Shown here: piece by piece, positions 2,033 to 14,916 of the stretch
How positions within the stretch are numbered: position 1 is the stretch's first letter
Layout of the letters: the number at the start of each line of letters is the position of its first letter
The notes under the pieces: generated by a model
Told to the model about the DNA's origin: nothing
Seen by the model: the letters and a program-made list of their open reading frames with translations, nothing else
Database searches by the model: none
Source: a virus
DNA length: 20,899 nucleotides
Strand: one strand, 5' to 3'
Virus record (IMG/VR): IMGVR_UViG_3300009172_000088
Span: 1 to 20,899 of that record
Position numbers and translations under genes: made by a program

Positions 2033-2494
2033 TTAATTATCAAACCAAAATACAATTCGTTTTTCTGTACTTTCTTCTATGTGAAATTCAAAAGGTATTT
2101 GATTCATATACTGTAACATATGGTGTAAATAAGCCTTCTGTCTGTTTACTGTATCATCTGCAGTCATTATAGATAATCTAATGATTAAAGCATTTAACTC
2201 AACTTCTGTAAAATAAGTAACAGAATGGGCATCTACTCCCCAACTTTTGTGCTCAGTACGCACAAGATGAGTTACATCATCAGGAAGACCTTTGCATTCT
2301 ACACTGTATGGATATTCACCACGCACACCTTCAGCTAACATGCCAAAAGCATCATAGTTTCTAGATGGTGCAGAATCGTCAAAAGCTCTACCCATCTCTG
2401 TACCTTCACTATACCAATGGTCGTAACTTATCCATTTGTTGTTATGTATATCAGGTGAACGGTATTCTTTGAATAAATGAATGTCGCAACCCAT
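2033..2494 (-). CDS. MGCDIH-family phage protein, unknown function
   Basis: 153 residues starting MGCDIHLFKEYR, with RNYDAFGMLAEGVRGEYP (about residues 45-62), GLPDDVT (69-75), and a HSVTYFTEVEL segment (about 90-100). Proteins starting MGCDIH with a following RNYxxFxxLAgVR and GLPDDvS pattern occur in many phages. I know of no established function for them. The invariant-looking Cys3/His6 and aromatic residues suggest a small enzyme or metal site, but that is only a guess. A GGGGAA SD precedes the ATG. The GGA-loop hairpin at 2512-2530 lies just upstream, so this gene may begin its own transcript. Confidence 0.75.
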   Translation of the reverse strand: MGCDIHLFKEYRSPDIHNNKWISYDHWYSEGTEMGRAFDDSAPSRNYDAFGMLAEGVRGEYPYSVECKGLPDDVTHLVRTEHKSWGVDAHSVTYFTEVELNALIIRLSIMTADDTVNRQKAYLHHMLQYMNQIPFEFHIEESTEKRIVFWFDN

Positions 2495-2511: not shown

Positions 2512-2530
2512 GAAAAAGTGCGGAGCACTT
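2512..2530 (-). promoter_or_regulatory. N4-type virion RNA polymerase promoter hairpin (or terminator), copy 1
   Basis: On the plus (template) strand AAGTGC-GGA-GCACTT makes a 6-bp stem with a GGA loop, preceded on its 5' side by an A-run. N4 early promoters have a template-strand hairpin with a 3-nt loop whose central G is position -11 and a stem G at -8. Here these are 2523 and 2520, giving +1 near 2512, 17 nt before the ATG at 2494. Read on the minus strand it also resembles a short intrinsic terminator for the gene ending at 2529, whose stop codon overlaps the stem. Confidence 0.55.
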
Positions 2531-3029
2531 ATGATAATAATAATAGTTTTATTTGTAGCTCATTTAATAAAGCGTACGTTTTTGGATCACGTAAATCTTT
2601 AATATAATAAGTTTCAGGTGTTACCATTGGAACAAGTTGATTAATGTGAGCAGGTAATGCGTACGCAATATCTACAACATTGTCACTCTTGTTATTTAAA
2701 TAACATAAATACACTTGAATTTCTTTTATAGAATCTTTTAAATTATCTATAAGTTGCAAATGTTTTTTTATTTCTACTTGATTAAAATCAGGTAAATCAA
2801 ATAAACAAATAGTTTTAACTTCATCAGTTAAATAACATGCATCATCAGAAGTATTAATAAAAGATTGATTGCCATTACTTTCTTGAAGTATAAACGTTAA
2901 ATATTTTGAATTTTCTTCAGTCATACTTTTAAGATAATTAAGCAGAAATTGTTTTCTGTTTTTAATAGCAGGTAAAACAAACTTTGCTTGTATTGAATTC
3001 AGAAGAGTTGTCATAGATAATTTATCCAT
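2529..3029 (-). CDS. Unknown 166-residue protein
   Basis: SD AGGAG lies seven nt before the ATG, and the start follows directly after the 81-residue gene (1-nt gap). It appears mostly alpha-helical: helices about residues 3-17, 22-37 and 86-108, and a Leu-rich C-terminus ending ELQIKLLLLS. There is no catalytic motif, signal or membrane span that I can identify. Its stop codon overlaps the stem of the hairpin at 2512-2530, so it probably closes the ATPase/VWA transcription unit. The family is not recognised. Confidence 0.7.
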   Translation of the reverse strand: MDKLSMTTLLNSIQAKFVLPAIKNRKQFLLNYLKSMTEENSKYLTFILQESNGNQSFINTSDDACYLTDEVKTICLFDLPDFNQVEIKKHLQLIDNLKDSIKEIQVYLCYLNNKSDNVVDIAYALPAHINQLVPMVTPETYYIKDLRDPKTYALLNELQIKLLLLS

Positions 3030-3030
3030 A

Positions 3031-3276
3031 TCAATCTCCTGAAATGGTTTGTTTAATTCTTATTTTATTAACGTTAACTTCGCTAACTAATTCCATAGAT
3101 ATTTTACTATCAAAATCAAATCCTTCAATAGCTAAAGTATCTCCATAACCTGTCATTATTTCTGCAGTTTTTAAAGATTTCATTATTGCTACTGCATCGT
3201 CTACAGGTAATAGGAACTTAGTTCCATACCCTAGACTAACTGTAGCAAGCAATTTACCATGCGTGTTTTGACTCAT
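3031..3276 (-). CDS. Unknown 81-residue protein overlapping the VWA gene
   Basis: The open frame extends upstream to 3411, but the best start is the ATG at 3276, which has SD GGGGAG about 10 nt upstream. Upstream in-frame codons sit inside the VWA gene and encode an unlikely Leu/Gln-rich peptide. From 3276 the protein begins MSQNTHGKLLATVSLGYG and looks alternately beta and helix, including VDDAVAIMKSLKTAE and a C-terminal strand-rich segment. It overlaps the VWA gene by 23 nt, so it is translationally coupled and could belong to the same module. I recognise no family. Confidence 0.65.
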   Translation of the reverse strand: MSQNTHGKLLATVSLGYGTKFLLPVDDAVAIMKSLKTAEIMTGYGDTLAIEGFDFDSKISMELVSEVNVNKIRIKQTISGD

Positions 3277-4411
3277 AATATATGGTCTCCCCGTATTCTG
3301 GTGCTTCTTGTTCTGAATAACAAATCCACATAGTTTCAAATTCGTATCCATCTTCTGCAGTAATAGATTCTGCATAAAGATCTGTAAAATAAAGCAAAAC
3401 ATTTGTAGCATTTTCTTTGCAGTAATCTAATACTGGATAAAATGATGTTCCGCCTCCTCCAGTAAACTTAAGCTTCATAATATCTGTGCTGTCGTCTACT
3501 TCGTGTATGTTATGAATGATTTCATCACAATCAAGTATAGTCATATTACTTGGTTGATACGTATCATAGATACTTTTAACTTCTGTAAGTATTTCAGACA
3601 TCATAGGATCAGTTACAGATCCAGATGTATCTATAGCAACTGTAAGATGCGCTATAGTTTCTGAGTACATAGTAGGCATGTAATGAGTAGGGAAGTAACG
3701 TCTGTTAGGACGTTTCCAAGTATGATCATTTTTAGTATTGCTATCCATAAACCTTGCTAGCAATTGACTCCAGTCTAATACTGGATTGATTAAATCATTA
3801 ATTAAACGATCTACTTCACCAGGTATTTTACCCGCTTCTTCACCACCTTCCATTTTAGCCTGTGCTCTGGCTTTCATTACAGTGTCTTGAATACTAGTAG
3901 CAATATCGCCTTTAGTTTCAGTGTCTGCATCTTCAGAGAAATCAATATCTCCATCAAGAATGTTAGGTTTATCTTGCTTACCTTGATGTTGAAGAAGGTC
4001 GTTGTAAACTTCTTCAGTGCTCCACCCATGATACTTTGCATCATATAAGTGTGGCTCAGGTAAAACATAACCAGAATTTCGCAATATATCGTTTATAACG
4101 TAATCACCTGCTTGGTTGTATAAATTATGATCACGCTCTCCTTTACGAAGTGGGTGCATTAAAGCAATGTGCATAATTTCATGAGCTAAAACACCAATGC
4201 GTTCTTGCTTAGATAAGCCGGTAAAAAATGCTGGATTAAAATAGATTCTTTTACCATCTGTAGCAGCAGTACTTACAATTTCTGTAAATACATGCTGCAT
4301 CATTAAACCAACAGCTATGAGGAAAGTTCCTCCTTGCATCATTAAGCCAATTTTTGTTTTATCTAACTCTTTTTGTAGAGCTGGAGTAATTTCAACTGCT
4401 GGATATTCCAC
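3254..4411 (-). CDS. VWA-like protein with N-terminal metallopeptidase domain (DUF2201-type), partner of MoxR ATPase
   Basis: 385 residues with two recognisable parts. The N-terminal part has a zinc-peptidase helix, H77-E-I-M-H81, followed by a helix with D103 (AGDYVIND), as in the putative metallopeptidase region of DUF2201 proteins. The C-terminal part is a von Willebrand A-type domain. Its metal-dependent adhesion site is complete: DTSGS at 261-265, the Thr of GGGGTSF (322), and D344 in YFTDLY. An acidic linker (about 150-200) joins them. Bacterial proteins of this type are encoded next to MoxR AAA+ ATPases, and N4 has a similar ATPase/VWA pair (gp24/gp25). Here the ATPase is two genes upstream. 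The likely role is recruiting or cleaving a target remodelled by the ATPase; the target is unknown. Confidence 0.85.
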   Translation of the reverse strand: MEYPAVEITPALQKELDKTKIGLMMQGGTFLIAVGLMMQHVFTEIVSTAATDGKRIYFNPAFFTGLSKQERIGVLAHEIMHIALMHPLRKGERDHNLYNQAGDYVINDILRNSGYVLPEPHLYDAKYHGWSTEEVYNDLLQHQGKQDKPNILDGDIDFSEDADTETKGDIATSIQDTVMKARAQAKMEGGEEAGKIPGEVDRLINDLINPVLDWSQLLARFMDSNTKNDHTWKRPNRRYFPTHYMPTMYSETIAHLTVAIDTSGSVTDPMMSEILTEVKSIYDTYQPSNMTILDCDEIIHNIHEVDDSTDIMKLKFTGGGGTSFYPVLDYCKENATNVLLYFTDLYAESITAEDGYEFETMWICYSEQEAPEYGETIYYESKHAW

Positions 4412-4421
4412 AATTTTCCCC

Positions 4422-5357
4422 TTATTTTAATTTAAGTTCTGAACGCCAGTACTCATGAACATCACAAGTAAAATAATCTACTTCAATTTCATGTCTATAT
4501 TGACTGTAATGTTTAATCATTTCTCTAATGACATCACGTCCAAGACTATAGCTATGACGCAAATTTTTACGCTCTATAAAAGATTTAAGAGCAAGTTGCC
4601 CATCGTAATTGTTTTGAATGTATTCATAAGCTTGTTTATGGGCCCACTCAGGCTCGTCATTATGCTTTTGCCACTTTTCTCGTGCAATGTTGTTTAATCC
4701 TTCAGGCATTTTAACATCGCTTCCGTCATCTTTTAGATAACTTAATAAAGTTACTTTTTTTATTAAAGCGTCTATTTTTTCACGATATTCTTTACGTGCT
4801 TCTTTATTAGGAGGCATGTAAAAATTACGTACTGAATCAGTTTGATGGCAATATTTGTAACTAAATTTATTTTGTTTAAATAGTTGAGTACCTTTTTGAG
4901 ATATATCAAATCTTACACGTCCGTTGTGCTGATTTGATAAATCAACAATCATAAAAGATTCGTTATCTATATTATTTTTAGGTACTTTAATAACATCATT
5001 ACTATTATTACTATGAGCAGTAATATTTCTAAGCCAATGTTTAAAACGTTTTGAAGGAGCTATTAAAATATCAAGAGCTTCAACGTGAAGTAAATCATTT
5101 ACACTATGATTAACCTGTAATTCAAAATCATTATTTTGAAATAATTTATAAGAAGCTCCAGCGTAATTATTACTATAATAAAACCTTCTTAAATCTTCTT
5201 TATCAAATCTAGCTGACACATGGTTAGATATAACACACATGTCTTTGACTTTTTTTGGTGTATCGTCAAGATGCATCAAAGCATAATCTGATTCAGAAAC
5301 GTTTTTAAATACGTTATGATCTACTGTGGCATCTAAAGCTGTTAGATAATGTCTCAT
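4422..5357 (-). CDS. Unknown 311-residue protein between MoxR ATPase and VWA genes
   Basis: It starts with a 4-nt ATGA overlap on the ATPase stop codon and ends 10 nt before the VWA gene, so the three are made together. The N-terminal half is predicted mixed alpha/beta, with a long polar Asn-rich stretch around residues 115-135 (AHSNNSNDVIKVPKNNIDN). The C-terminal half is highly charged and helical (about 186-230 and 243-285). No Walker, nuclease or membrane motif is visible. By position it may be an adaptor or substrate of the ATPase/VWA pair, but nothing in the sequence itself proves that. Confidence 0.75.
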   Translation of the reverse strand: MRHYLTALDATVDHNVFKNVSESDYALMHLDDTPKKVKDMCVISNHVSARFDKEDLRRFYYSNNYAGASYKLFQNNDFELQVNHSVNDLLHVEALDILIAPSKRFKHWLRNITAHSNNSNDVIKVPKNNIDNESFMIVDLSNQHNGRVRFDISQKGTQLFKQNKFSYKYCHQTDSVRNFYMPPNKEARKEYREKIDALIKKVTLLSYLKDDGSDVKMPEGLNNIAREKWQKHNDEPEWAHKQAYEYIQNNYDGQLALKSFIERKNLRHSYSLGRDVIREMIKHYSQYRHEIEVDYFTCDVHEYWRSELKLK

Positions 5358-6367
5358 AGCATCTCCTGAGCGTTTTTAGTAACCCATGCATCAATGTATG
5401 GTGCTTCCATTATTTCAGCGTTACGACGTACTGCAGACTTCCAAGTGACTACTTGAAAATCAGCCGGTAAGCGCTCTACGAATTTGGATAGGTTATCAAT
5501 GTTTTCTGTCGTTACTTCGTACGCAATGAGACCAGCTAATGCGTAATGCACACTTGGCTCATTAGGTATTTTGACAGTACTAGGTTTACTAATGATGTCC
5601 TTGATTTTAGGTAGACTTTGAAAGATCTCACTAAAGCCTTTGAACTCTAATGCGCAGCCTTCACCTACAGTACCTGCAGCTGTAACTACATCAATATGGC
5701 TAAGCTTTTCCTTACCCTTAATTATGTCGGATAAGAATGCCCATGTACGTGGACAAGCAAACGTATCATCAGCATGTGATGGATTGAATTTAAATAACAA
5801 TTCTTTCCTGTACTCAATGAATGATGTAATACGATGGTCGATACCAGCTACGTTAGCCCACTTGAGCCAATGATCTGGATCTACACCCATGTTTAGATGT
5901 ATAAGCCGACTCTGCATAGCAGTACCTATACGTTGAGTGATAGCTTTATCTGTAGCTAGGTTGCCTGCACCTATAACAGCTACATTTTTATGTAGGTTAT
6001 TTTGACCTACTTGTCTATCAAGACAGAGCTTATAAGCTGCAGCTTGCACACTTAATGGAGCACTGTTCATTTCGTCTAAAAATAGCAACCAGCCATTGTA
6101 TCCTTCAGGTACTGTGTCTCCTTCAATAGGAAACAAAGCAGCTGGTAAGAATGTAGCACGGCCATTTTCAACTCCAGGAAAACCCTGTAAGTCAGTTGGG
6201 TCTGCTTGACTTAAACGAAAGTCAATTACTTTTAGATTAAGTTCTTCAGCAACCTGCTTAATAATGTCAGATTTACCGATGCCAGGGCTTCCCTTCAAGA
6301 AAGGTACTTTGCCTGCATATAATACGTTGACAATCGCTTCTGGAATGTCTTTAGTTGAAAGTTCCAT
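5354..6367 (-). CDS. MoxR-family AAA+ ATPase (N4 gp24-like)
   Basis: 337 residues. Walker A is GSPGIGKS at 26-33, Walker B LLFLDE at 94-99, and sensor 1 the Asn of VIGAGN (136). A likely arginine finger is R154 in MQSRL. The insertions and the order ADPTDLQGFPG (55-65) after the first strand fit MoxR-type ATPases, which work as ring-shaped chaperones with VWA-domain partners. SD AGGAAA precedes the ATG. The GGA-loop hairpin at 6396-6414 sits about 30-45 nt upstream, so this gene probably opens a transcription unit that includes the 311-residue protein and the VWA/metallopeptidase. The biological target in phage infection is unknown. Confidence 0.9.
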   Translation of the reverse strand: MELSTKDIPEAIVNVLYAGKVPFLKGSPGIGKSDIIKQVAEELNLKVIDFRLSQADPTDLQGFPGVENGRATFLPAALFPIEGDTVPEGYNGWLLFLDEMNSAPLSVQAAAYKLCLDRQVGQNNLHKNVAVIGAGNLATDKAITQRIGTAMQSRLIHLNMGVDPDHWLKWANVAGIDHRITSFIEYRKELLFKFNPSHADDTFACPRTWAFLSDIIKGKEKLSHIDVVTAAGTVGEGCALEFKGFSEIFQSLPKIKDIISKPSTVKIPNEPSVHYALAGLIAYEVTTENIDNLSKFVERLPADFQVVTWKSAVRRNAEIMEAPYIDAWVTKNAQEML

Positions 6368-6395
6368 AGTATTTCCTAAATAATATTTAAATGGT

Positions 6396-6414
6396 TAAAA
6401 CGTGCGGAGCACGT
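6396..6414 (-). promoter_or_regulatory. N4-type virion RNA polymerase promoter hairpin, copy 2
   Basis: Template-strand ACGTGC-GGA-GCACGT, with AAAA between the stem and the predicted +1 at about 6396. The central loop G (6407) would be -11 and G6404 would be -8, as in N4. A clear terminator (6417-6440) lies just upstream and the MoxR gene start 29 nt downstream, an order expected of a promoter rather than a second terminator. Confidence 0.6.
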
Positions 6415-6416
6415 AT

Positions 6417-6440
6417 AAAAAAAGACACCCTTGGGTGTCT
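6417..6440 (-). terminator. Intrinsic terminator
   Basis: On the minus strand AGACACCC (6440-6433) pairs with GGGTGTCT (6430-6423), followed by seven T (6423-6417). It ends the unit whose last gene is 6461-6619. Confidence 0.85.
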
Positions 6441-6460
6441 CTTGTTTAGTTTTAATAAAT

Positions 6461-6619
6461 TTAAATTGCGTTTAATTTTACAAGTAATTCTTTCACTTTA
6501 CGTTGATAGTATTCAGTGTACTTACTTCCACCTTTAATAGCGTTTTCATAAGTAGTCATTTCATGACGAATGTCTTCAACTTTACGTGCTTTAATTAACT
6601 TGTCTTTTAAAGAAGACAT
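6461..6619 (-). CDS. Small charged protein, 52 residues, unknown function
   Basis: A short gene with SD GGAG nine nt before the ATG at 6619. The start overlaps the DUF3310 gene's end by 13 nt. The product MSSLKDKLIKARKVEDIRHE... is mostly charged and helical (two helices around residues 2-28 and 34-50). It ends just before the terminator at 6417-6440, which supports it as the last gene of this transcription unit. I recognise no family. Confidence 0.65.
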   Translation of the reverse strand: MSSLKDKLIKARKVEDIRHEMTTYENAIKGGSKYTEYYQRKVKELLVKLNAI

Positions 6620-6897
6620 TCATTTTCACTCCTTTCCAGGAATTCCAATTGCATTTGCAATACATGTATTGCTTTTGTAATGTCTTCTTTATGAGTGCCT
6701 TTATCACGAGTTAAGTATTTACATACTTTAGTGTGAACAGAAGCACGTAAGCCTATGTAACCAAAGTTAGCATAAGTAGCTTCAAGTGGTTGCACTCCAA
6801 GGACTTGATAATGATTACCACCTACTTGAGATTCTATTGCTGAATCTGTATAAGCTGGATCAGTTTTAGGTTCATCAATTGTTTTTCTTAATCTCAT
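6607..6897 (-). CDS. DUF3310 protein (T7 gp1.7-related family)
   Basis: 96 residues with the DUF3310 pattern. VGGNHYQ lies at 25-31, then VQPLEAT and FGYIGLRASVHTKVCKYLTR (residues 35-64). A C-terminal helix follows (KEDITKAIHVLQMQLEFL) in which the family's KYxxR...D..KA spacing is preserved. T7 gp1.7, a nucleotide kinase, contains this domain, but most DUF3310 proteins are uncharacterised, and no P-loop is visible here. It may act in nucleotide metabolism. The first ~20 residues are a polar extension. It begins with a 4-nt ATGA overlap on the helix-turn-helix gene. Confidence 0.8.
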   Translation of the reverse strand: MRLRKTIDEPKTDPAYTDSAIESQVGGNHYQVLGVQPLEATYANFGYIGLRASVHTKVCKYLTRDKGTHKEDITKAIHVLQMQLEFLERSENECLL

Positions 6898-7196
6898 GAT
6901 TCGTTATCTCTTCGTTTAAAATAATGATGTTTTTCAGCGTAAGCTACACCACCATGCGAACAGCCTATTAAACGAGCTATTTGTCTTGTACCAAAGCCTC
7001 TTTCTCTAAGATTTTTAATAGTGCTTAAAGGTAGTTTGACTTTATGGGGAAGATTAGACTTTAAACCCATTTTACTAGCTTTTTTTAAAACAGCTGTTTC
7101 AGTTTTACTTAAAACCAAAGCTAAAGCTACTACTGGAAGTACTCCGTACTTTTCCTTTAATATTTTAGTTTGGTCATAACTCCAAGTTCTATTCAT
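6894..7196 (-). CDS. Small helix-turn-helix DNA-binding protein
   Basis: 100 residues. The C-terminal half has a helix-turn-helix pattern at about 57-90 (STIKNLRERGFGTRQIARLIGCSHGGVAYAEK): an RxIAxLIGCS recognition region like resolvase/GcrA-type domains. The N-terminal part (WSYDQTKILKEKYG..) resembles a Myb/SANT-like helix start. It is basic, with no enzyme motif. The ATGA overlap with the DUF3310 gene indicates co-translation. It may be a transcription or endonuclease-associated DNA-binding protein; the target is unknown. It is the first gene after a short noncoding gap holding an inverted repeat. Confidence 0.7.
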   Translation of the reverse strand: MNRTWSYDQTKILKEKYGVLPVVALALVLSKTETAVLKKASKMGLKSNLPHKVKLPLSTIKNLRERGFGTRQIARLIGCSHGGVAYAEKHHYFKRRDNES

Positions 7197-7228
7197 AGAT
7201 TAGCCTTTTTGTGATTTATGTCTTTTTT

Positions 7229-7263
7229 GTTTCTTAAATTATACAAAGTAAAATATAAGAAAC
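7229..7263. repeat. Inverted repeat in intergenic gap
   Basis: GTTTCTTA (7229-7236) and TAAGAAAC (7256-7263) are perfect 8-bp arms around a 19-nt AT-rich loop. They lie between the genes at 7279 and 7196. The symmetric arms could be an operator or a middle-promoter element, but no T-run follows in the minus direction. Confidence 0.4.
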
Positions 7264-7278
7264 AATTAACTGTTTTTG

Positions 7279-7668
7279 TTAATCCCACAGATTCTCATAG
7301 TACCTGCCGAACATTTTAAATGCTTTAGTCATTCGTTTTTGATGTTCTTTCAAATTGTCTTTGAACATCCAATCGTCTTCACACTTCTGTTCAAAGGCCC
7401 AGATCATTTCATCCATTATCCAGTTCCAACGGGCATGGAAGTTGCTATCTGTGTCCCACTTATTTATTTTAGGGCCATCTACTGTGCTACGCAGTTCCTC
7501 TGGCACATCTTCATCATCGGTAAAGGGGCTACCATGTTTAGATTCTTTTAACTGTTTGAGCATCGGTAGGATTACATGTGCTAGGGTATAGTCCATGCTC
7601 CATGTGTCTTCTTTGTCTATTCTTACCTCGATTTCTGGATCAGGGTATTCCCCTATGTTAACTTTCAT
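7279..7668 (-). CDS. Unknown phage protein, 129 residues (DTWSMDYTLA..HARWNWIMDEM type)
   Basis: The protein has a pattern I have seen in many phage proteins. DTWSMDYTLAHVILPMLKQL (22-41) is followed by KHGSPFTDDEDVPEELR and HARWNWIMDEMIWAFEQKCED (about 78-98). I know of no function for this family. The product is acidic, with several Trp residues, and appears helical. SD AAGGA lies about 10 nt before the ATG, and the start overlaps the end of the next upstream gene by 11 nt. Confidence 0.75.
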   Translation of the reverse strand: MKVNIGEYPDPEIEVRIDKEDTWSMDYTLAHVILPMLKQLKESKHGSPFTDDEDVPEELRSTVDGPKINKWDTDSNFHARWNWIMDEMIWAFEQKCEDDWMFKDNLKEHQKRMTKAFKMFGRYYENLWD

Positions 7669-8071
7669 TGTCTTTATCCTTTAGGAATACTTTTAATGTT
7701 TTACCATCATCTTGATACGACAACTCGACACTAACGTCATAATGCGTCATGTTTACCATTCTACCTGTACCTGCCCATGTATGGTCTATAACCTCGAAGC
7801 GTTCCACACCTTGGTTAAGGTAAATTGTGTTATTTATTAGTTGTTTACGTTTTTTACTAATAGCTTCGTAGAGTTTATTAGTTGAGACAGCCATAGTGCA
7901 GGAAGCTGGCCTTCTTTTAAGAATTTTACCGCAGTCTACAAATGAAACAGAGAGTGCACGTAGCTCCATCAACAGACCTAGATCTGAATCAATCCAAGAT
8001 TCTTGGTTACGTACAGCAGTACTAAACGATTCAGGTATTTTAGGTTTAAATCCAAGATTTTTTGATTCCAT
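7658..8071 (-). CDS. Unknown protein with possible helix-turn-helix
   Basis: 137 residues, SD GAGG six nt before the ATG. Residues 30-80 (LGLLMELRALSVSFVDCGKILKRRP... followed by a basic helix AISKKRKQLI) resemble a helix-turn-helix with a variable second helix like those in small phage DNA-binding proteins. The C-terminal half (about 85-130) looks like beta strands (YDVSVELSYQDDGKTLKVFL). No enzyme motif is visible. The function is unknown, and the DNA-binding idea is tentative. Confidence 0.7.
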   Translation of the reverse strand: MESKNLGFKPKIPESFSTAVRNQESWIDSDLGLLMELRALSVSFVDCGKILKRRPASCTMAVSTNKLYEAISKKRKQLINNTIYLNQGVERFEVIDHTWAGTGRMVNMTHYDVSVELSYQDDGKTLKVFLKDKDNES

Positions 8072-8081
8072 CTATTACCTC

Positions 8082-8309
8082 TTACTTATTATTTTTAATA
8101 CCCCGGTAATTAACTTCACTGACGTATTTATTATTCCAAGCAGATTCACCTAAAATAAGATGTTTATTATCAGGTTCTGTTGGAGTCCACTCTCGTTTAG
8201 TGGTATCCCACTCTTCTTCTACACAAGCACTAGATAATGCTCGTTTAATACGATCTTTTGGTCTAGTGTCCTCACCAATAGGTGTCGGTAAATCATTAGG
8301 TATTTTCAT
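8082..8309 (-). CDS. Unknown 75-residue protein
   Basis: The start shows an ATGA overlap (8306-8309) with the membrane-protein gene, and an AAAGGA SD lies about 6 nt upstream. The product is polar and Pro/Trp-containing (PNDLPTPIGEDTRPKDR, TKREWTPTEPDNK). It is likely poorly structured, with no recognised motif. Confidence 0.65.
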   Translation of the reverse strand: MKIPNDLPTPIGEDTRPKDRIKRALSSACVEEEWDTTKREWTPTEPDNKHLILGESAWNNKYVSEVNYRGIKNNK

Positions 8310-8641
8310 TCACGATCCTTTCTAGCTTCGATACTCCTTATTATCTCACTTTCTAGGTCTTGGAGAAATCCTTTAATGTCTTCTTCGTCATGTAAACATG
8401 CGAATATTTCGTCATCATCTTTTTCATCTATGTCTGATGCTAATTCTAATAAATCATTAGCTACTCTTTCAAACAAACCAAATACTACTGTTAGTAATTT
8501 AGTAATAATTGCAAAGAAAGCACACATAAATACAAATGTTAATTCAGGGTTTATACTACCCCCGTTAGCTAAATGAAAAATAGCCACTATTAGTACTAAT
8601 AATGGAAAAGTTAAAAGCCCTTTACTTAAAATTGTTAACAT
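8306..8641 (-). CDS. Two-span inner-membrane protein, unknown function
   Basis: 111 residues with two hydrophobic segments (about 5-25 and 34-56) joined by a short GGSINPE loop. A strongly acidic cytoplasmic-looking tail (DIDEKDDDEIFACLHDEEDIK) follows. SD GAGGAAA precedes the ATG. It is coupled by ATGA overlap to the next gene. Small two-span proteins in phages can be holins or superinfection-exclusion proteins, but this sits among early/middle genes, away from the endolysin, so a host-takeover or exclusion role is at least as likely. No family is recognised. Confidence 0.7.
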   Translation of the reverse strand: MLTILSKGLLTFPLLVLIVAIFHLANGGSINPELTFVFMCAFFAIITKLLTVVFGLFERVANDLLELASDIDEKDDDEIFACLHDEEDIKGFLQDLESEIIRSIEARKDRE

Positions 8642-8651
8642 AATTTCCTCT

Positions 8652-9191
8652 TTACAATGTACTTATTAAAGAAATAACAGAGTCACGAAGACCATGTTTA
8701 CGTCCATTTATAACCGTTATGCCATGTTGACTTAGTATACCATCAAGTTTGTTAGCTAATTTGTCAGGTAAGCTAAAGGCGTAGGATCTCTCACCAGTGT
8801 TAGCCTGAGTGCCTGTATCAACTAACTTGCTCATGGGTATCTTTTTATACTTCTTAACAAATGCCACATGTCCTAGCTTAACGGTCTCCTTATTGATAGC
8901 AGCTACAAACTTAGTCCATCCAAGACGCTCTAAACAGTACTTCTGCTCTTTCTCTTGCCAGTTAAACTTCTGCATACATGTGTACCCATAGATAAGGTTA
9001 TACACCTCTGCATTAAGATTAGGGATCTCAGCCTTAATCATTGCATCGAATGTCACATACTGAGTGACTTCCCAATCAATGGTGTTAGCCGCCATGTTCA
9101 ACAACTTGGCAAACATGTACTTCTGACCTGTAGATGTACGGCTAAGTTTTTTGATACTTGTTACTAACTGACTTACGTTTAAGTTTTTCAT
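8652..9191 (-). CDS. Unknown 179-residue helical protein
   Basis: SD AAGGAA precedes the ATG. The sequence is predicted mostly alpha-helical, with basic patches (VKKYKKIPMSK) and a C-terminal part (SLPDKLANKLDGILSQHGITVINGRKHG) that reads like a small winged or helical DNA-binding module. Its codons look less AT-rich than those of its neighbours. A role in replication or transcription is possible but nothing specific is shown. N4 gp2, which helps load RNAP1/RNAP2 onto DNA, would be expected in this part of an N4-like genome; I cannot tell whether this gene is its counterpart. Confidence 0.7.
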   Translation of the reverse strand: MKNLNVSQLVTSIKKLSRTSTGQKYMFAKLLNMAANTIDWEVTQYVTFDAMIKAEIPNLNAEVYNLIYGYTCMQKFNWQEKEQKYCLERLGWTKFVAAINKETVKLGHVAFVKKYKKIPMSKLVDTGTQANTGERSYAFSLPDKLANKLDGILSQHGITVINGRKHGLRDSVISLISTL

Positions 9192-9200
9192 AATATTTCC

Positions 9201-9755
9201 TTATTGATTTTCGAATTTTATTAATCTTCCAAGTACAATTTTAATTCTACGTTGTTCAACAACGTCAGTAGGTATTTCATAAGCTGGAGTGCCAGTCTGT
9301 CTACAGAGAATACTTCTAACGTAGTAATCAGACACGTTCTCAATATATATACTGGCCACTTCTCTGCCCTTAGCTAGGTAAGTTTCATACCTAATAGGGT
9401 CTTTTAGCCTTTTGGCTAAACACTTCGATTTCTGGGCCTTAGCTTTTTCAGGGTTTTTTAATCGCCACTCTTTCGCATATTTCGCAGCTTTAACTTTTAT
9501 AGCTGGATCCGCTAAACTCATTTTATTATAGATCGAGTTGCAATATATCCTATGTTGTTTAAGCTCACTTTTAGTCATGTCTGCAACCAGTTTGTGGCTC
9601 CTCTTACCTGGATAAATAGACAGGCGTTTCGGTAAACGACGTGCCGCATGAGCTCTAGTAGCTGCATTGGCATACACACGATGTTGCTTATGTTCCTCTT
9701 CAGTCATATCAGCAACCTTCTTGCGACACTTCTTACCTGGATATATATTGGCCAT
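9201..9755 (-). CDS. Basic protein with duplicated N-terminal repeat
   Basis: 184 residues, strongly basic. Two copies of a motif lie 43 residues apart: IYPGKK....VADMTEEEHKQHRVY (from residue 4) and IYPGKR....VADMTKSELKQHRIY (from residue 47). They are followed by KYAKEWRLKNPEKAKAQKSK (92-111), a linker seen in phage HNH-type endonucleases, but no HNH catalytic motif is present. The C-terminal helix (EQRRIKIVLGRLIK) resembles the ends of such proteins. It may be a DNA-binding protein related to endonuclease families that lacks the nuclease. SD GAGG precedes the ATG. Confidence 0.7.
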   Translation of the reverse strand: MANIYPGKKCRKKVADMTEEEHKQHRVYANAATRAHAARRLPKRLSIYPGKRSHKLVADMTKSELKQHRIYCNSIYNKMSLADPAIKVKAAKYAKEWRLKNPEKAKAQKSKCLAKRLKDPIRYETYLAKGREVASIYIENVSDYYVRSILCRQTGTPAYEIPTDVVEQRRIKIVLGRLIKFENQ

Positions 9756-9776
9756 AGTTTCACCTCATAATGAGTT

Positions 9777-9801
9777 AAAAAAATACCCCAATTAAGGGGT
9801 A
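9777..9801 (-). terminator. Intrinsic terminator
   Basis: On the minus strand TACCCC (9801-9796) and GGGGTA (9789-9784) form a 6-bp stem with a 6-nt loop. Seven T follow (9783-9777). It lies between the GGA-loop hairpin at 9848-9868 and the gene starting at 9755. Confidence 0.8.
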
Positions 9802-9802
9802 C

Positions 9803-9849
9803 TAGAGTTTAAAATGGATAAATGCTATTAAAAACATTAGAGTTTAAAA
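9803..9849. repeat. Direct repeat TAGAGTTTAAAA, two copies
   Basis: TAGAGTTTAAAA occurs at 9803-9814 and at 9838-9849, beside the terminator hairpin and the GGA-loop hairpin respectively. It may be a duplicated control region. Confidence 0.5.
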
Positions 9850-9868
9850 AAGGGTGCGGAGCACCCTT
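9848..9868 (-). promoter_or_regulatory. N4-type promoter hairpin or terminator, copy 3
   Basis: Template-strand AAGGGTGC-GGA-GCACCCTT (9850-9868) has an 8-bp stem and GGA loop around the same 11-mer as the copies at 2518-2528 and 6402-6412. The central G is 9859, putting +1 at about 9848. On the minus strand it is followed by TTTTTT, so it could equally terminate the RNA polymerase transcript that ends at 9880. If it is a promoter, its RNA would meet the terminator at 9777-9801 after about 70 nt. Confidence 0.45.
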
Positions 9869-9879
9869 ATATTTTTGAT

Positions 9880-10863
9880 CTACGATAGTGCATATTCTGA
9901 GTTTAATATATGTTTACTTAGATCAGGTGAGTCTTTTATTAATAACACATTATCACCCGTAACATCTAGCATAAACTTATTAAGCGCATCTGAGTCAGCT
10001 AACTTGGCTAATATTACTCGGTAGTTATCACGCACCTTATTCATATGGTTAGGTGATGCCCAAAATGAGTCATGAATATGAGCTAATTGAAATCCCTGGT
10101 TATGCGCCATTCTTACCATCATACGAGCTACCCAGGCGTCTAGACTATGAATATAGTTAGGACATAGCGATGTATGTCTAGTACTAGGCTGGTTACTCGT
10201 ATATCGGTAAGTAAAGGTTGTATGATCTAGCTCATCAACCTCAATGCGTGTATCCATTGCTTCAGTCACTTTGACTTTAGATACATGGCCATCTGGCGTT
10301 ACCCATTTGTGATACAAAGCTGAGTTGTCCCAACACTCATTGATTATATTCATTACGTCTTCTGCACCAGAAAACAAAGAGTTTAATACTTCATGAAAAG
10401 CATTTTCTCGCTCACCTCTTAGACTGCCTTGTCGTGATTTATTATAGAAATGGGTCATTACAGGCTTTTTTACATCAGCCCGTACAACAGCATCAATTGG
10501 ATCTAAAATAAGATTCATTCCAGTAGCCACTTCTGTGTAAACATCTTCCCTGTCACCTGTATCAATCAAATTGACAGCAGCTGCAGTTTTAAGGCAGCCT
10601 GATAAACAGGCCATAATTTGTAGCCCTGATGCAGTAGCATCTAAGGCCATTATGTAACCCGTTGGTTTACCAGCTATTGCATCATTGTATGCATTAATAG
10701 CTTTAGTAAATAAAAACGGGTTAGAAGCTGCAGGAGTCATACTGTTAAGATTACTAACGTTGTAATCAAACCAATACAATCTATCTTGCCAAGAGAGTTT
10801 GTCTTTACCAAACTCATTAGCAGCTGCAATCTTTATATACTCTAATCCAGTGAATTTTTGCAT
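9880..10863 (-). CDS. Middle RNA polymerase, catalytic (C-terminal) subunit, N4 RNAP2-like
   Basis: 327 residues carrying the palm and fingers motifs of single-subunit (T7-type) RNA polymerases. Motif A has D75 in ALDATASGLQ. Motif B has R128-x3-K132 and Y140, with the same spacing as T7 R627/K631/Y639. Motif C is H264-D265 (IHDSFW). The DxRGRxY motif that precedes the palm is in the other subunit. The stop of the upstream gene shares one nt with this ATG, so the subunits are made in equal amounts. N4 RNAP2 is, as I recall, about 404 residues, so this copy is shorter. It transcribes middle genes with the partner protein. Confidence 0.9.
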   Translation of the reverse strand: MQKFTGLEYIKIAAANEFGKDKLSWQDRLYWFDYNVSNLNSMTPAASNPFLFTKAINAYNDAIAGKPTGYIMALDATASGLQIMACLSGCLKTAAAVNLIDTGDREDVYTEVATGMNLILDPIDAVVRADVKKPVMTHFYNKSRQGSLRGERENAFHEVLNSLFSGAEDVMNIINECWDNSALYHKWVTPDGHVSKVKVTEAMDTRIEVDELDHTTFTYRYTSNQPSTRHTSLCPNYIHSLDAWVARMMVRMAHNQGFQLAHIHDSFWASPNHMNKVRDNYRVILAKLADSDALNKFMLDVTGDNVLLIKDSPDLSKHILNSEYALS

Positions 10864-11726
10864 TATATTATAACCTCTTGTTTTACAAAGCTTAATAAAG
10901 CTTTCTTATAGTCAGTGGACTGGAAATTGATGTGATAACCTGAAGAGTACATTCTCCCCCGTTTATCAAATTTCCACATGAAGTAAAATGGAATATCTGT
11001 ATATTCTTTATATACTCTAGAACTAGTAGTTTTCATAAGATCAAACTGCATAGATTTTTCTGGGGTATCTAAAGTTTTATTAGGTTTCTCCCTAAGTTGT
11101 AGGATTTCAGGATCGAGCTCCCATTTAATAGACTGCAAGATATTTAAACAGTCTAAGCTTTGCTTTTCTTTATGATGGTTATGCTGCCCTAAGATGCAGG
11201 ACTCTTGTTGAGTATAATGCCCACCCCCCTGGTTAAACTTCCAAGGTTTAGGAGGTAACACCATTGGTGGTATGTACATAAACTCATCAATTTTCGACAA
11301 GACACTTAAACTAGGCTTAAGCTTTGGCTCAAGAGCTAGAGTACCAGTAGGATTACTTTCATAATCATGAGCTAGCAAGTCATACAATTTACCTTCACAT
11401 ACTGCTAAGATTTCAGCAGCTGTACGTACACCCTCAATTAGTTTAGTGTGAAGCAACGGTGCCATAGACGTGCAAATACTCTGTATAGGAGTAATTTCAC
11501 CGTTACATTTAATTACTGACGCCGCTAACTGATAAGCGATGTCAATAGATTCTACTTTAATTGCTTTTACACGAGCATTCTTACTATCATAGGAATACTC
11601 TTGGTTTAAGTAAGTTTCTATTGAAAATACTAAATCTGTAATACTTTCAATATCTACATCATCTTTTAACGAGGCCATAAGACCTCGTCTAGAGAACGTA
11701 GTCTCCAGTAGTTTTTGTTCGTTCAT
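10863..11726 (-). CDS. Middle RNA polymerase, N-terminal subunit, N4 RNAP1-like
   Basis: 287 residues. The C-terminus carries FDKRGRMY (253-260), equivalent to T7 DWRGRVY (421-427), a conserved nucleic-acid-contacting motif just before the palm. The N-terminal half would match the part of T7 RNA polymerase around the thumb, and VLPPKPW (156-162) also recalls T7-type polymerases. The break therefore falls after DxRGRxY, as in N4 RNAP1. N4 RNAP1 is about 269 residues as I recall. SD AAGGAA precedes the ATG. It is transcribed directly before the catalytic subunit, with a 1-nt stop/start overlap. Confidence 0.85.
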   Translation of the reverse strand: MNEQKLLETTFSRRGLMASLKDDVDIESITDLVFSIETYLNQEYSYDSKNARVKAIKVESIDIAYQLAASVIKCNGEITPIQSICTSMAPLLHTKLIEGVRTAAEILAVCEGKLYDLLAHDYESNPTGTLALEPKLKPSLSVLSKIDEFMYIPPMVLPPKPWKFNQGGGHYTQQESCILGQHNHHKEKQSLDCLNILQSIKWELDPEILQLREKPNKTLDTPEKSMQFDLMKTTSSRVYKEYTDIPFYFMWKFDKRGRMYSSGYHINFQSTDYKKALLSFVKQEVII

Positions 11727-13463: not shown

Positions 13464-13486
13464 GATCATGTTCCTTTAATTAAAGA

Positions 13487-13521
13487 CACGGATTGTGCCA
13501 TCCCATATGGAAAGGAGTGAG
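13487..13521 (-). promoter_or_regulatory. Leader element B, candidate early promoter
   Basis: On the plus strand CACGGATTGTGCCA leads to CCATATGG (13503-13510) and then AAAGGAGTGAG. CCATATGG starts 40 nt above the start codon at 13463. Element C has the same CACG-AT-TGCCA-CCATATGGAA order. Confidence 0.5.
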
Positions 13522-14095: not shown

Positions 14096-14153
14096 GAAGA
14101 TACGAGAAGGAGACAGCGAAGCGAAGCGAGAGCTGTCTTCTTCGAGTATCTTT
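14096..14153. repeat. Large imperfect hairpin, 22-bp arms
   Basis: GAAGATAC...GACAGC (14096-14117) pairs with GCTGTC...GTATC (14132-14153) with one 2x2 internal loop and two G:U pairs. The 14-nt loop (GAAGCGAAGCGAGA) holds a repeated GCGA(A/G). A short T-run follows on the plus strand. It could be a bidirectional terminator or a genome-end structure. Confidence 0.65.
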
Positions 14154-14208: not shown

Positions 14209-14916
14209 ATGGATCAATCTACTGCAGTAACTGAAGTTTACCTCTCAAAAGAAGAGTTTAAGGCTACTCTGCCTAAAGCTATGAAAGGCCGTATAAGCGA
14301 CGAGCTTATGGGCAATATCAATTCCCTACTACAAGACCAATCCACTAGAGAAGAACTGCGGGATAACCTAGTCGGCTATGCGAGTGTTTTGGCTCAAGGC
14401 CGGTACAAGGTGGAGGATTATATCTCCGCCGTTAAGTATGTAAGTTATAAGATGCTTGGTTCTAGTAACTTAGAGTCATATGTAAAAACCTTTCCTAAAC
14501 GGTATAAGCGATTGCTCGATGATGGTGTAGATGATCATAGGGTTAGTGCTTATGCTTCTGCATATAATAAAAATCAGCTAGTTAATAAGATATATGAGCA
14601 AACTCTAATACCTTCCCATATTTTAAATGCCGACGTGTTTCAAAAGGCACTTAACGTACAGGCGGAGTTGATGGTTCATGCTAATAGTGAAAAGGTTCGT
14701 AGCGATGCCGCGAATAGTCTTCTGACCCATTTAAAGCGTCCTGAGATTACTAAGATAGAGCTGGACGTTGGTATGAAGGAAGATAAGACTATTAATGATC
14801 TAAGACAAGCTACTATGGCACTAGCTGCAAGCCAGCGGGATATGATAAAGTCAGGAATGATGAATGCTAAAGAAGTAGCACATAGCCAAATTTTAGAAGG
14901 TGAGGTGGTAGAGTAA
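14209..14916 (+). CDS. Possible small terminase or N4 gp69-like protein
   Basis: 235 residues, mostly alpha-helical and charged, no signal or membrane span. The second half (VQAELMVHANSEKVRSDAANSLLTHLKRPEITKIELDV, about 150-187) resembles the helical C-terminal parts of small terminase-like proteins. Together with position two genes before the large terminase, this suggests the small-terminase or gp69 position of N4. The sequence evidence alone is modest. No SD of normal strength lies before the ATG at 14209; the next in-frame Met is residue 25. The stop overlaps the next ATG by one nt (TAATG). Confidence 0.5.
   Translation: MDQSTAVTEVYLSKEEFKATLPKAMKGRISDELMGNINSLLQDQSTREELRDNLVGYASVLAQGRYKVEDYISAVKYVSYKMLGSSNLESYVKTFPKRYKRLLDDGVDDHRVSAYASAYNKNQLVNKIYEQTLIPSHILNADVFQKALNVQAELMVHANSEKVRSDAANSLLTHLKRPEITKIELDVGMKEDKTINDLRQATMALAASQRDMIKSGMMNAKEVAHSQILEGEVVE

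Follow-up and report, generated by a model that had tools for sequence, protein, structure and literature searches.

The early promoters of phage N4 (P1-P3) start transcription at +10 after a hairpin loop, and the terminal G and A of that loop, together with its C-G closing pair, are important for hairpin extrusion (PMC4496689). The sequences that follow the three loops read GCAAC TTAT GG, GCTTC TTTT GG and GCAGC TTTT GG. Their transcription by the virion RNA polymerase depends on gyrase and SSB. Reports on relatives, in the parts accessible to us, describe three or four hairpin promoters in the early region of each genome (PMC3715699, PMC6027278, PMC6950046). In the accessible parts, three are predicted in each of LUZ7, LIT1 and PEV2 (PMC3715699) and CB1 (PMC6027278); these 3-nt-loop hairpins were recognised as N4-like and lie in the early region only, with middle-region hairpins unmentioned there. 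In Klebsiella phage KP8, the putative promoters are four GCTCCGC hairpins (PMC6950046), one of them ahead of an RNAP subunit gene. The N4 promoters of RNAPII, the RNAP1/RNAP2 heterodimer, serve middle genes and are AT-rich, melted by an unknown protein together with gp2, with no hairpin described (PMC4496689). Middle-region hairpin promoters go unmentioned in the accessible parts of the literature searched; the LUZ7 start-site map, which lies outside this comparison, could contain part of such a set.

Four hairpins in the gene gaps of an N4-like phage

The window, meaning the whole 20,899-nt stretch analysed, is record IMGVR_UViG_3300009172_000088, a fragment of an N4-like phage that encodes RNAP1, RNAP2, a gp24-like ATPase, a gp69-like protein and an N4-type terminase (Table 1). 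It has two overlapping contigs at >99.8% identity: G001 (hereafter g1; IMGVR_UViG_3300027780_000014, 62 kb), which covers the window almost fully, and G002 (51 kb). The split RNAP1/RNAP2, the N4-type terminase with gp69 and a giant virion RNA polymerase (vRNAP) identify the phage as a member of the Schitoviridae. The vRNAP-type ORF, found in g1, is 3,779 aa long; its polymerase domain shares 20-22% identity with annotated vRNAPs, and R424, D559, K670, Y678 and D951, which we take to be the catalytic residues in N4 mini-vRNAP numbering, all align. The phage thus encodes the polymerase that the sequence-only reading had asked for in the rest of the genome, and whose absence it had named as counter-evidence. 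The residues with which the N4 vRNAP contacts its hairpin show no recognisable conservation in either the g1 vRNAP or LUZ7 in the alignment. Because these positions do not align even for LUZ7, polymerase specificity is unreadable from sequence, and this approach was dropped.

Table 1. Features of the hairpin loci (window coordinates unless another contig is named; hairpins in gene-strand sense)
Feature	Position	Strand	Details
11-mer GTGCGGAGCAC, exact copies	2518-2528, 6402-6412, 9854-9864	+	template strand for minus-strand genes
Site A hairpin	9850..9868	-	AAGGGTGC[TCC]GCACCCTT; template loop GGA; 8-bp stem
Site B hairpin	6400..6414	-	ACGTGC[TCC]GCACGT; 6-bp stem
Site C hairpin	2516..2530	-	AAGTGC[TCC]GCACTT; 6-bp stem; abuts stop codon of upstream gene
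Site D (fourth exact 11-mer)	g1 22962		GCACAATTCTATGAAG; 5-bp stem; no T-run
Intrinsic terminator	9782..9803	-	~50 nt downstream of site A
Intrinsic terminator	6423..6440	-	AGACACCCAAGGGTGTCT + T-run; directly upstream of site B
RNAP1 subunit (N4 gp15-like)	10863..11726	-	phrog_2166, E=8e-56
RNAP2 subunit of split T7-like RNA polymerase (N4 gp16-like)	9880..10863	-	phrog_2051, E=4e-104; early/middle boundary
Gene without assigned function	9201..9755	-	first past site A and its terminator
MoxR-type ATPase (N4 gp24-like)	5354..6367	-	phrog_1297, E=3e-121; first gene past site B
Gene without assigned function	2033..2494	-	first past site C
CCTTTCCATATGG-like motifs	13030, 13530, 13890	-	upstream of small left-end genes
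GGCAC-AATCC-GTGTC hairpin	13485-13499	-	upstream of 120-aa gene
Hairpin with long conserved loop TCTCGCTTCGCTTC	~14100-14130		between gp69-like gene and left-end genes
Conserved intergenic block, ~150 nt	G001 22789-22960; L015:2789-2960		upstream of site D

The recurrence of one 11-mer at three places, always on the template strand of minus-strand genes, had been noticed from the letters alone, and all three copies are indeed exact and lie in gene gaps. The search for further copies in gaps that had been suggested yields a fourth, site D, so that g1 and G002 carry four exact copies each, on a single strand, and zero copies with one mismatch; the 20.9-kb record likewise holds none with one mismatch. 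At up to two mismatches there are 7 matches against 1.56 expected, a number reached in 0 of 100 shuffles; together with recurrence in near-identical and sister contigs, this rules out chance recurrence. All four 11-mers fall in gaps, which account for 6.1% of the early/middle region. The sites are dispersed rather than confined to the genome end, as had been claimed, and all four lie downstream of RNAP2, up to 16 kb in. Other viral contigs with the 11-mer and a T-run have zero matches to the proteins of this phage and were set aside.

The four loops are all 3 nt long, and folding as single-stranded DNA returned the same hairpins at sites A, B and D (z-scores -3.4 to -5.2). Site A lies 11 nt past the RNAP2 stop codon. 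Site B stands between a terminator and the ATPase gene, which begins ~36 nt on, the order that had been foreseen for a promoter. At site C, the 11-mer starts on the first base past the stop codon, and the downstream sequence TTTCATGAAAA places T12-G13-A14, counted from the loop, with G13 at 2509. No such hairpin site occurs in g1 6681-9163.

A search for any C[NYN]GC triloop hairpin with a stem of at least 5 bp recovered, from the leftmost 40 kb of N4, all three mapped promoters (95, 564, 4553) and one other hairpin; in g1, it recovered sites A-D and two others in the late region. The sites share much with N4 P1-P3, which have stems of 5-7 bp: a 3-nt template-strand loop (GGA, or GGA/GAA in N4) with 5' G, 3' A and a central purine, a C-G closing pair, a G at -8, a T-rich non-template spacer, sense orientation to early/middle genes and a position in gaps. 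GGA with G at -8 is present in 4/4 g1 sites, bearing out the N4-like design that had been proposed; in site A of the relative G007, the base at -8 is A. The differences concern start and location. P1-P3 start with G at +10 and all stand ahead of RNAP1, whereas the window sites are all past RNAP2 and their start motif, where seen, is TGA at 12-14. The bases at +10 in g1 are T, A, C and T, with no GG at +10/+11, and among g1 and its sisters G occurs at +10 only in G007 sites A and B. The KP8 hairpins differ likewise, since all carry an N4-type start (TATGG, TTTGG or TGTGG) within the first 6 kb.

The sequence-only proposal that these are N4-type early vRNAP promoters therefore did not hold up: none stands at the left end, all lie past RNAP2 and the GG start is missing. 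In that reading, they would be true vRNAP promoters that act within minutes of infection and are distributed along 12 kb rather than packed together at the left end. The GGA loop, G at -8, C-G closure and T-rich spacer, all shared with N4 P2/P3, and the giant vRNAP ORF with its aligned residues speak for this reading, but a search of the left-end gaps of g1, G003 and G007 for C[TNC]G hairpins, even with relaxed stems, found none. The family-wide spacing classes described below, in which +10 hairpins fall chiefly in the early region and +13 hairpins chiefly in the middle region, also argue against it, and we regard this reading as unlikely.

Other elements lie near the left-end genes (Table 1). 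Two of the three CCTTTCCATATGG-like motifs recur in G003 and none was seen in G007; their TATGG resembles the N4 start region, yet no hairpin precedes it. The GGCAC-AATCC-GTGTC hairpin has a G007 version, GACAC-AACTTC-GTGTC, and by its sequence may represent an early promoter that has diverged in this clade. The stems of the hairpin with the TCTCGCTTCGCTTC loop show compensatory differences in G003 and G007.

Conservation in sister phages and across the family

Three sister contigs, G030, G003 and G007, whose RNAP2 is 91%, 80% and 69% identical to that of the window phage, carry sites A-D at the same gene boundaries, and the loop is TCC at every site in all of them. Site A is kept in G030 and G003, while in G007 its stem is rewritten on both sides (GGGTGC/GCACCC to GGGCAC/GTGCCC), giving AGGGCAC[TCC]GTGCCCT. 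Site B is kept in G030 and G003, and also in G007 with one C.A pair, corresponding to G.T on the template. At site C of G007, in the same place, the AAGTGC stem is replaced by AAGAGAGC[TCC]GCTCTCTT.

Across six contigs of the clade, the intergenic block ahead of site D shows strong conservation, including long stretches without any change, and it holds clear inverted repeats; an Rfam search of the window and the site D block returned no match. On sequence grounds, this block is a candidate non-coding or cis-regulatory RNA of the phage.

To place the sites in the family, we tallied every triloop hairpin with a stem of at least 6 bp in 15 named Schitoviridae genomes after orienting them. Among the 461 such hairpins of the early/middle region, distributed over 256 triloop types (mean ~1.8 per type), three types dominate, namely C[TCC]G with 36 hairpins, C[TTC]G with 31 and C[TAC]G with 24; the next type reaches 9, and the excess of these three loops is absent from the late region of the same genomes. 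They are strongly oriented (91 sense versus 3 antisense in the 15 genomes) and mostly intergenic: across 19 genomes, 31/103 lie inside a sense ORF, compared with 372/448 of other triloops. On the template strand, all three read C[GNA]G, and GNA loops with G-C pairs form unusually stable DNA mini-hairpins (PMC4686876). GNNA tetraloops, which are likewise stable (PMC4686876), are the second commonest of their size class, behind UUCG-type loops. A family-wide G.T wobble test of DNA against RNA folding gave 7 versus 11; the antisense background was comparable, at 7 versus 6.

These data bear on two further explanations. The first takes the hairpins as intrinsic terminators that share a loop by coincidence. 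The sequence-only reading had allowed that each could be read as a terminator, which stands for sites A-C, where GC stems are followed by T-runs; site A scores as a good terminator, and canonical terminators adjoin A and B. It does not stand for site D, which has no T-run here or in any relative, and this defeats the terminator reading for the set as a whole; at site B of G003, the tail is only TTTC. Across the 19 genomes, a T-rich tail follows 5/103 of these hairpins versus 29/45 UUCG hairpins, and the recurrent TGR at a fixed distance described below is left unexplained. Because site D lacks a T-run and 95% of the family hairpins lack a T-rich tail, we rejected termination as the shared function, and coincidental terminators appear very improbable.

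The second explanation regards the hairpins as RNA elements of middle-gene 5′ leaders, acting in processing, stability or translation control. Their position just upstream of gene starts, the compensatory stem changes, which suit RNA equally well, and the conserved untranslated block adjoining site D are consistent with such a role. Against it, we know of no special RNA triloop of the UNC type with C-G closure, and the +10 class of hairpins includes the mapped N4 promoters P1-P3. The complement of the enriched UNC loop, GNA, is in turn a known special DNA loop (PMC4686876). We give this explanation very little credence.

Two spacing classes of hairpin

Downstream of the loop, a TGR motif begins at position 12 in 26/63 post-RNAP1 hairpins; with near-duplicates removed, the count is 22/58, compared with ~1.6 per other position, and T7 is present in 77% of the group. 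When hairpins with stems of at least 5 bp were counted before and after RNAP1, the N4-like T9-G10-G11 class numbered 17 before and 7 after, and the T12-G13-R14 class 4 before and 37 after. The two classes separate by region (Fisher p = 6e-7), a value to be read in light of their having been noticed and counted on the same data and of the non-independence of related genomes, although removal of near-duplicates alters little. No antisense occurrence of either motif was found. In N4 and Pantoea phage G19, the T9-G10-G11 class alone is present, always before RNAP1; KpCHEMY26 and SP076 have both classes, mostly split by region. Sites are numerous in Vibrio phage MS02, Pseudoalteromonas phage pYD6-A and Klebsiella phage KpCHEMY26, and LUZ7 carries hairpins at oriented positions 14555 and 15839.

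The window phage and two of its sisters provide a partial out-of-sample check, as g1, G003 and G007 were left out of the profiles in which the middle class first appeared. TGR at 12 occurs in 4/4 sites of G007 (one with a stem mismatch), in 2/4 of g1 and in 1/4 of G003, and T7 is present at every site of all three. In g1, the matches to T12-G13-R14 are sites C and D, with TAA in that place at site A and CCA at site B; in G003, site D alone matches in full. Judged by their sequence, the window sites appear to fit the T12-G13-R14 class best.

In the Vibrio phages pVa5 and 1.026.O, the only hairpins of this kind in the early region, at stems of at least 6 bp, have TAC loops, mostly followed by T11-G12-A13, counted from the loop, which may represent a third spacing class.

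A proposed second set of hairpin promoters

We infer, with a probability of roughly 0.64, that the hairpins are promoters of a phage single-subunit RNA polymerase, of the kind extruded on the template strand, as shown for N4 vRNAP, and that they constitute a second spacing class serving middle genes. Negative supercoiling would cause the inverted repeat to extrude, and the template strand would form a C[GGA]G mini-hairpin of the C[GNA]G type, whose loop and upper stem the polymerase would bind. Transcription would start ~13 nt beyond the loop, usually at the G of TGR, some 3 nt further from the loop than at the N4 vRNAP hairpins, with their +10 start in TGG. Site B would thereby drive the ATPase operon, site C the operon after the 166-aa gene and site D an exonuclease/primase operon. 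With a terminator ~50 nt beyond it, site A may give rise to a short RNA or to an attenuated leader; it could also act as a terminator itself.

The regional separation of the two classes suggests a second reader. Its genes lying just upstream of site A, RNAPII is probably the user of the hairpins, and a likelier one than vRNAP. In N4, RNAPII serves the middle genes, and its minimal promoter, which spans -7 to +2, would coincide in part with the T7...TGR portion of the sites. A vRNAP that reads both spacings is a possible alternative.

Extended to the family, the proposal of a second, middle promoter class would mean that most Schitoviridae outside the N4 genus have two temporally separate sets of DNA-hairpin promoters sharing the C[GNA]G loop, one at 10 nt (vRNAP, early) and one at 13 nt (RNAPII, middle). 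With the 13-nt set assigned to RNAPII, this polymerase too would read hairpins, and N4 would be a derived exception. We advance this broader model tentatively, at somewhat less than even odds.

Hairpin promoters have so far been a left-end curiosity of the injected polymerase of N4. If hairpins pattern middle transcription family-wide, they would hint at how RNAPII finds its start sites, a step attributed in N4 to an unknown factor. If the proposal is true, the hairpins would also offer candidate orthogonal promoter-polymerase pairs and would make middle operons callable from sequence alone in uncultivated phages.
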